From Hymenopellis radicata (lineage: Eukaryota > Basidiomycota > Agaricomycetes > Agaricales > Physalacriaceae), in contig JADNRX010000046.1 of NCBI GenBank assembly GCA_015501595.1, forward strand, positions 1-64,000: a DNA stretch of 64,000 nt, given 5' to 3'. This document shows positions 31,958 through 35,490 of this stretch, one piece after another. The stretch's first letter is position 1, and every line of letters starts with the position of its first letter. A program made the translations under genes and the position numbers. The notes below the pieces were generated by a model. The model ran no database searches. It was not told the DNA's origin and worked only from the letters and a program-made list of their open reading frames with translations.

Positions 31958-32460
31958 ACATTCCGGTAACGCAATGAGGAGTCGCTCAACCGACTTCCCT
32001 TGCCAAAGTCGTGGGAAGGAGGCTTAACCGGCAAATGCCGATGAACTTTGATTTCCGCGTATCCGCTACCCTTGGACTCCTTCTACCATCACCGTCGACG
32101 ACCAAGTACTCACTGCCAATCCAGCCGCTTCCGCCGTCGCCCCATCACGGTCAATGCGCTATGAGTCGTACAACAAATACATGTCTTCCCTTGATCCCTG
32201 CCAGACAAAGTGCTAGACAAAGTACTTCCTGCCCTTGGACCAGCCATCATTATCATATGACCGCCTTGGACCATGAGCCAGCATTGACCGGGCTGGCGCT
32301 TGCTCGAAGGCATGATTCCATACAAATAGCCGCGAGATGGCCAAGTTTCCCCCATCTTTGCTATCTGCATTCGAGCCACGCTACATTCATCACTTTAGTT
32401 GGTACGTCTACCAGGCATTTAGACTGAGGTGCACTTCTGACTGCGAAACTAGCATCAATA

Positions 32461-34165
32461 TGCCCGCTTCATACCGCTACGTGTATACACCTCTAGGACT
32501 TTCTGTTCAGGTACTTGTTCTTTTGTCACCAAGATCTTCATTCAACACATTTGTTTTCAGAATCGGCGTTACAACACACCGTACACGCGCCTCAACGACC
32601 AGCTCCAATCCATGTATCTTCCCATGTTCGTCGCCTTCCTTCCTCGCCCACTCTTCGCGCTCACACGTCTGCAGGCGGAATACAACGCGCTCACCGCCAG
32701 TGAACGTGCTCGAGTCAAATTCCCTGACACTCTGCGTCGCCAATATTCTCCCCACCCGCCCCTGTTCAGGCTCCCTCCCTAAACGCGCTGCTTCTCCCAC
32801 TCCCATTCCCTCCGAACCCCAACCCAAGCGTTCTCGCGCGGTGTCTCCTGATCCTCACGACCAGTACATCCACAAACTAAAACTGCTCGTAGCGCGATCA
32901 AGATGAGGAACGGGCCCAGATGCAGAAGAAAATCAACTGGCTGCGCGGCATGGTCGTCGCTAGCGAATCAATCTCCCGTCTATTTTCGCATGAAAACAAG
33001 GCTTGGAGAAACAGGTTATCGTCATGGCGAACGAGCTGCAGTACTCGCACAGGGCCATTGCTGATATAAAGCGAGGTGTGCGCTGGAAGTTGACGAGGCG
33101 AACGACGCTGCTTTTAAGCGTTCGGAAGCTAGGGAGGAGGCGTTTAGGGGCGAGAGGCGTCAATTGGAGAAAGATATAGAGGCGTTTGAGGAGGAGAAAC
33201 GACAGGCGAGTTTCTATTTCTATTGCTTGATTCCTAGTCTAATGCGTTTTGTAGATCCGAAACCAATTGGAGTTAGCGAAAGATCTCGCTAATCAACGTG
33301 GCCACCGAAATGAAGCTATTAGCGCCGAGAACCACGACCTAAAAGCTGAGTTGGCTGAGAAGGACCAGGAGATCGCGGCGCTCAAGGCGTCTGTCCAAGT
33401 CGAACCCCAGCCATCGCCCACATACACCTCCCCATTCCCAGAGATGCAATCCCAGCAGTCATTCTACTCTGAGCCAACACCCACCTACTCCTCTCCTTAC
33501 TCCAGACACAGCCCCAGCAATTATTCCATTCTGAACCAACACCGACCTACTTTTCCCCTTACACTCAGGCGCAGCCCCGCTACTCTGAACCCTTTTACTC
33601 TTTCGCTCATCTTGCGCAAAACCCAGCATCGGCGTTCAGCTACGAGCCACGCCAAGCTTATTCCGAGCCGCCTCACCATGTGCATTCTGAACCGCCTCAG
33701 CATGCAGACTCCGAACCGCCTCGTCATGCGGACTCCGAATCGTCTCAGGAGACAGACTCTGAACCGCCTCGTCGCGTGTACTCCAAGCTGCCTCGTCGTA
33801 ATGTGTACGCCGAGCCGCCTAAGCCTGTGTACTCCGAGCCACCACCTCAGGCCTCCTCCCCCAAGCCTAAATCCTCTGAACGGGCCGATGAAATCTTCGA
33901 TGGCGGACGCGCCATTGAAGAAGAGGCAGCACGGGCTAAAGCAGCGCGTGCCGCCGAGCAAGCAGCCCAGGAAGCCTTGGTTGCTGCTAAACAGGAGGCG
34001 CTTAAAGCACAGTTGGCAGCTGAAGCTCTGAACGGGTTCGCGGACACTGCTGTCCCGCCACCAGAGTTCTCTGCGCCGTCATCTGGGAGTGTAGCGAAGA
34101 AGAGGATGTCGGCGAAAGAGAGGGCTGCGAGGCAGGCCAAGGGAATGCCTAGGCGGAAGTTCTAG
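32461..34165 (+). pseudogene. Coiled-coil, repeat-tailed protein gene with several frameshifts
   Basis: Coding-like sequence starts MPASYRYVYTPLGLSVQ, continues after a GTACTT...TTTCAG intron (32512-32570) with NRRYNTPYTRLNDQLQSMYL, then changes frame at about 32760 (SLPKRAASPTPIPS), 32900 (EERAQMQKKINWLRGMVVAS), 33010, 33085 (EVDEANDAAFKRSEAREEAF) and about 33505. The middle is a coiled coil (heptad-rich RNQLELAKDLANQ, KAELAEKDQEIAALKA). The tail holds SEPPxHAD/SEPPxxVY repeats of about 24-27 nt (33680-33850) and an Ala-rich helix, ending AKGMPRRKF. Each change is single-base and none is explained by an obvious intron, so I call it a pseudogene or indel-damaged copy. The family is not recognised. 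Confidence 0.6.
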
Positions 34166-34241: not shown

Positions 34242-34958
34242 GCAAGAGAGACTTGACGACGCCCCAGCCATTCTGGGGTAGGACAGCGATACGCGGGATT
34301 ACGATGTCACCAGTCCTGATGTGTGTCGCTGTCCTCCAAGGTCGTCAGAATACCACCCGAGTCTGAGCACTCGAACAACTCGCTCTCTTGCATCCTTCCA
34401 CATGGCCACTACGAACGCAACCGATCGGACGATTAACGAGGCGACACGAGAGACTTGACGACGCCCTTCGCAGGGTAGGGCAGCGACGTGCGGGATTACG
34501 ACGCCATCAGTCCTGATGTGCGCCGCTGCCCTCTAGGCCGTCAGAATACCATCCAAGTTTATACTTGAACAACTTCTCTCTCGTGTTGACCTCATTCATC
34601 CGACACTCACCGCAGGACCAACCAACTATACCGATTCCACTGGACGTAGAGGGACTTGACGACGCCCCAGACATCCTGGGGTAGGGCAGCGACGTGCGGG
34701 ATTGCCACGCCATCAGTCCTGATGTGCGCCGCTGCCCTCCAGGTCGCCAGAACACCATCCAGGTTTTATACCTGATCAACTTACCTCTCGTGTTCCGCCA
34801 TTTTCCACCACCGCCAACCATTCCCATTCCCACTCGACTCGACATACGAGGGACTTAACGACGCCCCAGATATCCTGGGGTAGGGCAGCGTTACACCGCC
34901 CTCCAGGTCGTCAGAACACCATCCAAGTCCGTGTGGACTTGATCAACTCCCCTCTCGT
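34242..34958. repeat. Four-unit array of multi-branched foldback elements (candidate structured RNA)
   Basis: Units at 34242-34391, 34444-34586, 34644-34791 and 34846-34958 repeat every 200-202 bp; linkers between them differ. Each unit has the same nested complementarity: outer stem P1 (GCAAGAGAG/CTCTCTTGC in unit 1; ACACGAGAGA/TCTCTCGTGT in unit 2), P2 (GACGAC/GTCGTC), hairpin P3 (CCCCAG-loop-CTGGGG), long stem P4 (GGACAGCG/CGCTGTCC in unit 1; GGGCAGCG/CGCTGCCC in unit 2) capped by CATCAGTCCTGATG, and 3' hairpin P6 (CGAGT/ACTCG, CAAGT/ACTTG, CAGGT/ACCTG, CAAGTCC/GGACTTG in units 1-4). Paired positions change together between units. Unit 4 lacks most of the P4 loop but keeps the other stems. 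Strand of any transcript unknown. It could be a foldback transposon family, a ncRNA array or both. Confidence 0.75.
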
Positions 34959-35099
34959 GTGTTGTTGTCGCCCAAGCAGGAAACCCCGACAGGAATAGGA
35001 TCGCAATGCCGATCCTCGTGCAGCCCAGCAATGTAAACAGCGCTGTAGACTCTAATCTTCGGTTGGAGTCGTCGGGGATTCTTTTGGCCTGAAGGTGCA

Positions 35100-35490
35100 A
35101 TGTCACCTTTATCAGGGGGACTCAGGTTAGGTTTGGTTTGGCTGGATTGTCTGGTTCGAAAGGGTTTTACTTCTAGTAGCTCGTCGCTTGTCGGTTGTTC
35201 GTCGCCTCCTTTCTCTTGCCTCTCGTCGTTTTATATTTGTATCTATATTTCTCCACTACTAGACCGTCTCGCTATTGGTGTTGCATTGTATTTTGCTCTC
35301 TGTTTCTGTGTCCTGTCTCCGTCTTGCTCAGTTGTATTTAATCGTATTGTTTGGTTGTAGACGTCGGTGTCTGCATGCTTTGATGTTTGCGTTCTTAAGA
35401 CTTCAATTCTGAGGTAGGTCGTAACTTCCTCTTCATCTTGTCTAAATCTTCACGATCGGGTTAATGTGGCGCAGCTCCAAGTCACCGATA
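35100..35490. other. T-rich intergenic stretch, no supported gene
   Basis: The plus strand is rich in T and TTG. A short open frame exists at 35100-35360, but its hydrophobic composition follows from base skew and it has no recognised family. Nothing else was seen. Confidence 0.35.

Follow-up and report, generated by a model that had tools for sequence, protein, structure and literature searches.

We analyzed a window of 64,000 nucleotides from Hymenopellis radicata and found in it, at positions 34242 to 34962 of the + strand, an array of four units spaced 202, 201, and 199 bp apart that share one fold. Selection on this RNA fold, which a preliminary description of the array had proposed, is supported by compensatory change that in aggregate exceeds a tree-based null, by the recurrence of the element, with 25 units at seven genomic places, by low divergence of the units between two of these places (D and E), and by G-U states outnumbering A-C states. 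We consider the odds about even (probability roughly 0.5) that the array is a set of tandem structured elements in an mRNA 3′-untranslated region (3′-UTR), multivalent and bound by an RNA-binding protein.

The preliminary description gave four units at a spacing of 200 to 202 bp, a common fold, and base changes that keep the pairing, and in these respects our results agree with it. The outer stem (CAAGAGAG/CTCTCTTG for unit 1, CACGAGAG/CTCTCGTG for unit 2), the variants of the long stem (GGACAGCG/CGCTGTCC and GGGCAGCG/CGCTGCCC), and the 3′ hairpins (CGAGT/ACTCG, CAAGT/ACTTG, CAGGT/ACCTG, and CAAGTCC/GGACTTG) that it named are all seen in the sequence. Two of its points did not hold. A long stem is not common to all units: the cap CATCAG..CTGATG is exact only in units 2 and 3, with CACCAG in unit 1, and unit 4 is without the extension. 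Nor does the array end at 34958; the 3′ end of unit 4 lies at ~34960 to 34962, just past that position. The coordinates of the units, the linkers, and the upstream gene are listed in Table 1.

Table 1. Units, helices, linkers, and upstream coding features of the array in the window
Feature	Position	Strand	P1	P2	P3	P4	P5	Remarks
Coiled-coil stretch of upstream gene	33255..33602	+						..AEKDQEIAALKA..; tblastn E 1e-3 to 1.3e-5
Last open frame of upstream gene	33680..34165	+						Distance from end of stop codon to P1 of unit 1, 76 nt
Unit 1	34242..34391	+	34242-34250/34383-34391	34253-34260/34341-34348	34261-34267/34273-34279	34280-34287/34328-34335, with apical extension 34288-34327	34358-34363/34368-34373	J1/2 34251-34252; J2/5 34349-34357; J5/1 34374-34382
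Linker 1-2	34392..34443	+						35% C, 20% G (46 nt measured); predicted almost without structure
Unit 2	34444..34587	+	34444-34452/34578-34586	34455-34462/34537-34544	34463-34467/34470-34476	34477-34484/34525-34532, with apical extension 34485-34524	34554-34559/34562-34567	
Linker 2-3	34588..34644	+						C-rich, G-poor: 42% C, 10% G (50 nt); predicted almost without structure
Unit 3	34645..34794	+	34645-34653/34785-34793, partial pairing	34656-34663/34743-34750, absent from minimum-energy fold	34664-34670/34676-34682	34683-34690/34731-34738, with apical extension 34691-34730	34760-34765/34769-34774	
Linker 3-4	34795..34843	+						C-rich, G-poor: 50% C, 5% G (42 nt); predicted without structure
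Unit 4	34844..34962	+	34844-34852/34952-34960	34855-34862/34907-34914	34863-34869/34875-34881	34882-34889/34895-34902	34924-34929/34936-34941	Short form, without P4 extension

To find further copies, the 75.5-Mb assembly (1,405 contigs) was searched with patterns and DNA searches, and candidate loci were scored with a covariance model that, as the preliminary description had suggested, was built from the four window units. This yielded 25 units at seven places, each of them in sense orientation downstream of a coiled-coil gene or of what remains of one, with E-values from 2.5e-50 to 6.9e-13 under a model that was itself built from the four window units. Besides the window (W, four units), the places are A, B, and C on contig C974 (three, three, and two units), D on C380 and E on C976 (six units each), and F on C309 (one unit). 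Two candidates from a second model, a weak remnant (C309; E = 0.042) and a doubtful match (C904, locus L115; E = 0.5), were left uncounted; the count of 25 is that of the best candidates scored, and degenerate or diverged copies may be missed. Core patterns with 0 or 1 mismatch revealed no unit in the 12 off-array loci examined (L046, L050 to L052, L058, L060, L061, and L067 to L071). With up to 3 mismatches, the first core pattern had 700 matches versus 474 in the reversed control; because of this difference, and because the first places alone were resolved, further degenerate copies may exist. A gapped pattern matched at 24 places, of which 20 lie in the known arrays; of the other 4 (on C248, C1132, C548, and C746), the two examined, C248 and C1132, had no unit. 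In IMG/VR, a 15-mer scan picked out 26 stretches, on which the model made only two matches, both at chance level (best E = 4.1). An 18-mer scan gave 3 stretches, none with a unit at E ≤ 1; prokaryote genomes had 0 matches in a 23-mer scan, and a tRNA/tmRNA scan found none. DNA searches of the H. radicata genome with three of the arrays matched only the known places, behind two gene families. The preliminary description had allowed for a mobile foldback family. As far as these searches reach, a foldback or MITE origin is not supported, since the seven places found all lie behind the two gene families or their remains and are not dispersed away from genes.

The unit consensus, ~110 to 150 nt long, consists of two nested three-way junctions with variable terminal loops. 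P1 (9 pairs) closes the unit; the outer junction joins P1, P2 (8 pairs), and P5 (6 pairs), and the inner junction joins P2, P3 (7 pairs), and P4 (8 pairs). In the outer junction, J1/2 is AC in 25/25 units, J2/5 is AAYACCAYC and 9 nt long in 24/25, and J5/1 is AACRACTCG, 9 nt long in 22/25 and 10 nt in window units 2 to 4. Mean column entropy is lowest for J1/2 (0.00 bits), P2 (0.14), and the P4 stem (0.22), intermediate (0.45 to 0.61) for P3, P1 (0.47), J2/5 (0.48), P5 (0.50), and J5/1 (0.61), and highest (1.18 to 1.65) across L3 (1.39), L5 (1.65), and the flanks. Since their entropies are similar, J2/5 and J5/1 are conserved about as well as P1 and P5. A miRNA-like long-hairpin precursor was rejected, as the helices are short and lie at two nested junctions.

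We also asked how often the consensus helices form in free minimum-energy folds, counting a helix as present when 3 or more of its pairs occurred. Among the 21 non-window units, P1 formed in 20, P2 in 19, P3 in 21, P4 in 20, and P5 in 18, and every missing helix belonged to C2, E6, or F1. In window unit 3, P2 did not form as drawn. P2 (TTGACGAC/GTCGTCAG), which is not among the helices of the preliminary description, has an A-C left uncompensated in units 2, 3, and 4 of the window array. In the minimum-energy folds of units 1 to 3, GGGAUU pairs with AGUCCU, displacing CATCAG/CTGATG. An additional helix, GTCGT/ACGAC, pairs in 85.6% of cells with one double-change pair, and 31/500 shuffles reach its paired percentage; we set it aside as possible but without covariation support.

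Compensatory change was measured on a MAFFT alignment of the 25 units, all from a single genome, that was not fitted to the structure. Of 913 cells at the 38 structure pairs, 93.1% pair canonically, compared to 33.7 to 44.9% in slid-partner controls, a percentage that is favored because the structure was drawn from the same sequences that were tested. Double changes occur at 11/38 pairs, in 41 cells. Related sequences inflate such counts; hence, we simulated a null column by column, independently along the tree. For the 25 units, this null gave means of 86.1% paired, 5.3 double-change pairs, and 11.3 cells, and the observed values were reached in 0/1,000 simulations. When E was left out, the percentage, the double-change pairs, and the cells were reached in 0, 1, and 0 of 1,000; with W, D, and F, or with one array per family (14 units), the numbers were 0, 2, and 0. 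The four window units, on which the preliminary description had based its claim of changes on both sides of pairs, were also taken on their own: 6/38 pairs are changed on both sides, versus a null mean of 2.0, and 1, 1, and 1 of 1,000 simulations reached the percentage, the double-change pairs, and the cells.

Individual pairs were assessed with a pair-by-pair test of our own rather than R-scape. Among 5,778 column pairs, none had E < 0.05 (lowest, 1.97). Three of the top four covarying pairs (126-142, 49-98, and 30-42) belong to the structure, and their E-values are 0.012 to 0.015 if only the 35 tested structure pairs are counted. The count of further standard pair types was not in excess of shuffles, 380/500 of which were at least as high. 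G-U states outnumber A-C states by 91 to 21, or by 46 to 21 without two near-fixed wobbles (columns 19-115 and 27-45). This excess favors the + strand as the one that acts as RNA.

Folding energies of the window units were compared with those of dinucleotide shuffles (200 each). The z-scores of units 1 to 4 were −6.14, −4.37, −3.91, and −2.18; 0, 0, 0, and 4 of 200 shuffles folded at least as well, so that unit 4 is weak taken alone. For the whole array, the z-scores were −9.1 (+ strand) and −7.0 (− strand), from 20 shuffles per strand. The preliminary description had found no conservation of pairing in the linkers, and none of the three window linker pairs scored above the best of 200 shuffles.

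Arrays D and E are 96% identical, and E is an allele or recent duplicate of D. We compared the two by region. Their units differ at 8/683 aligned positions, compared to 26/492 in the between-unit sequence, including a 220-nt gap (Fisher 5.5e-5 versus units), and 39/911 in the last coding exon (Fisher 2.4e-4 versus units). We conclude that the lower divergence of the units is a line of evidence independent of pairing. Between A and B, 11/347 unit positions and 21/75 linker positions differ, the latter in a poor alignment. Between A and C, the unit rate (9/236) is not below that of the single shared linker (1/32) and gives no support for constraint.

In a tree of the units, W1, D1/E1, D4/E4, and F1 cluster (support, 0.962) and W4 goes with D6/E6 (0.927), while D3 goes with D5, not with W4, and W2 goes with W3. 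Because units group across loci, the arrays are older than the split of these loci, with no strict one-to-one order. In D and E, units 3 and 4 are ~220 nt apart, and units 1 and 4 both cluster with first units; the six-unit arrays look like two three-unit arrays. The gap between units 3 and 4 (L044, positions 1550 to 1780) contains an open stretch, ..IDIEELEDTHRWDRTELARMQIRTIG.., that may be what is left of a second host gene. Only window units 1 to 3 have the apical extension of P4, and unit 1 otherwise groups with the first units of other loci. This confinement suggests gene conversion or local spread inside the array.

The arrays follow genes of two families, a link to a preceding same-strand gene that is absent from the preliminary description. 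Those before A, B, and C encode proteins of 322, 317, and 311 residues (P0006 to P0008), and our spliced model for the A gene equals the deposited protein P0006. D, E, W, and F follow the second family (P0002 and relatives), F behind a decayed copy and W by a weak coiled-coil match: the stretch listed in Table 1 is weakly similar to P0001 to P0004, the family of the gene before D and E. Coding matches in the window's upstream gene (32400 to 34165) are scattered over different frames, which may reflect decay or assembly indels. The host proteins of A and D have no significant similarity to each other (BLASTP E = 1.1). The stop codon lies 72 bases before the first aligned unit in W, 186 in A, 187 in B, and 31 in E. 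In D, the distance is 31 bases in the frame that is open in E; the deposited protein ends in a different frame, 234 nt from the first unit. C and C309 have no clean distance because of an insertion at the coding end in the former and a decayed gene in the latter.

Protein homologues numbered 4 (D-type gene) and 6 (A-type gene), the named ones being from Hymenopellis radicata and Mucidula mucida. Both families have relatives in Mucidula mucida; the host genome, that of Hymenopellis radicata, belongs to the Physalacriaceae. The last open reading frame of the window's upstream gene had no protein homologues, none of six host proteins matched a Pfam family above the cutoff, and a search of PDB with P0006 returned nothing. 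No accepted unit was seen in the 2.5 to 2.7 kb examined at the A-type paralogues on C904, C1074, and C519, the doubtful C904 match aside, or at fragments on C974, so the array is tied to some, not all, copies. The C904, C1074, and C519 copies (L115, L116, and L120) share a near-identical A-type gene end and ~2 kb of downstream sequence with another open frame and no array; this looks like a dispersed repeat carrying a piece of the gene. The gene before C (L042, ~90 to 1250; C974:143232 onward) has, read by eye, an insertion of ~1.1 kb close to the end of its coding part; the insertion has inverted termini (AGTGAATAG/CTATTCACT) resembling those of a DNA transposon, and the two units behind it are intact.

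How might such an array act? In the reading that we prefer, it would be transcribed as part of the 3′-UTR, with each unit sealed by P1 around its two nested three-way junctions and the units arranged like beads along C-rich linkers mostly without structure. The junction strands AC, AAYACCAYC, and AACRACTCG, not the variable loops, would be the recognition surface; one RNA-binding protein, as candidate partner, would bind several units together; and binding would control the localization, stability, or translation of the mRNA. Sense orientation, proximity to stop codons, reuse by two families, fixed-length junction strands, and C-rich linkers all fit an mRNA-borne platform for multivalent binding. 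Because the two gene families show no detectable similarity, the array looks like an undescribed mRNA control element, and one trans-acting factor is suggested by its presence after genes that are unrelated. The places differ naturally in unit number, from 1 to 6, and in the gene ahead of the array, which offers a test of how unit number tunes mRNA fate.

Other explanations were weighed against this binding platform. The array might be a polycistronic precursor from which P1-closed units are processed, their linkers trimmed, to act as separate noncoding RNAs. Closure of each unit by its own P1, linkers that are mostly unstructured and diverge faster between D and E, and a unit number that differs between loci would all suit a precursor. 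However, an independent noncoding RNA gene would not need to lie in sense orientation behind two gene families, and no Rfam family, snoRNA families included, matched; we rate processing of this kind as unlikely. Cleavage by Dicer or RNase III into small RNAs is the least probable explanation considered here. The extended P4 arm of window units 1 to 3 (~20 pairs with interruptions) could serve as a substrate, but the hairpin arms P3 to P5 of the other 22 units have at most ~10 pairs, and P1, which in some reaches ~19 pairs with a bulge, closes a junction and not a hairpin. That the repeats have no RNA function and arose by duplication or gene conversion, with compensation by chance, would agree with all copies being paralogues in one genome, with the P4 extension shared by units 1 to 3, as gene conversion would produce, and with the lack of unit constraint between A and C. 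We give this a very slim chance, given that the observed pairing was not reached in 1,000 tree simulations, that the units of D and E diverge less than their linkers and coding exon, and that the clusters of W1, D1, D4, and F1 and of W4 and D6 place the order within arrays before the split of the loci.

Two further explanations concern RNA elements with known precedents. Flaviviral xrRNAs are tandem three-way-junction elements in a 3′-UTR (PMC5760640), as the units here would be. The units could similarly stop a 5′-3′ exoribonuclease so that stable 3′ fragments persist; in favor of this, they stand in tandem behind stop codons, and in each of them three-way junctions precede another hairpin. 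The viral elements, however, depend on pseudoknots with downstream sequence (PMC5760640), whereas P1 encloses the whole unit here and loop-junction pseudoknots within the unit gave no clear signal in the 25 units relative to shuffles. At least 4 contiguous pairs were possible between L4 and J5/1 in 3/25 units (shuffled mean, 8.0) and between L4 and J2/5 in 6/25 (shuffled mean, 5.2); seven other loop/junction combinations reached at most 4/25, four of them at or below the shuffled mean and three slightly above. We regard exoribonuclease resistance as improbable. A small-molecule aptamer in each unit, with tandem copies giving a graded or cooperative riboswitch-like response, seems to us no more probable. 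Conserved junction strands beside varying terminal loops would be expected of an aptamer, and 5′ ACTTG could switch to pairing with the 5′ arm of P5 (CAAGT) in 98.4% of cells. This alternative helix is possible but without covariation support: it has no double change, and its paired percentage is reached by 500/500 shuffles; in addition, the host proteins are not recognizable metabolic enzymes, and two fungal 3′-UTR structures tested as riboswitches gave evidence against that function (PMC8216456). A broader and doubtful idea is a portable 3′-UTR module, an undescribed aptamer or ribonucleoprotein scaffold recognized through its junction strands and gained in tandem by unrelated genes, with a ligand or protein response proportional to unit number. 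In its boldest version, it would amount to a eukaryotic riboswitch-like system other than the TPP type.

Box elements of H/ACA snoRNAs were also looked for. Such RNAs have an H box (ANANNA) between two hairpins and an ACA box near the 3′ end. An H-box-like AGAAYA is present at columns 114 to 119 in 25/25 units, with two of its bases paired in P2. The strand after P5 is mostly AACGAC and continues into P1, AACAAC occurring only in W1 and W2, and an ACA box near the 3′ end was not found.

The preliminary description knew of no described family with this layout, and database searches bear this out. Rfam release 15 (4,227 families) gave no match to the whole window at the gathering score; at a permissive E, the array gave two chance-level matches (E = 8.5 and 9.2), and none with E ≤ 5 was found in L036 and L047 (arrays A and D). 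A literature search of open-license PMC papers, mostly by title or the start of the abstract, found no such element described. Yeast ASH1 zip-code elements, which offer an analogy only, are not known to be near-identical tandem copies. The ASH1 mRNA contains four of these cis-acting elements, to which She2p binds (PMC3079584). Gao, Jones, and Rivas (2021; PMC8216456) reported conserved structures in fungal mRNA 3′-UTRs from screens of five ascomycetes. Like the units here, these are covarying multistem RNAs, the GLY1 structure having four stems around a multistem junction. They are predominantly single copy per genome, and the string “tandem” is absent from the main text of that paper, whereas the element here forms mostly tandem arrays of 2 to 6 in a basidiomycete, behind two gene families. 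We regard it as a putative structured 3′-UTR element, set apart by its tandem arrangement and by its occurrence behind unrelated genes. Structured mRNA elements of basidiomycetes seem little charted, the covariation screen that we found having covered five ascomycetes only (PMC8216456).

Approximately 400 nt 3′ of the array, a 29-nt stretch (35360 to 35388; GACGTCGGTGTCTGCATGCTTTGATGTTT) has 86 to 90% identity to a stretch 3′ of arrays D and E. It is the sole match at E ≤ 0.01 between the downstream flanks of the window array and of D and E, and it is perhaps a 3′-end signal.
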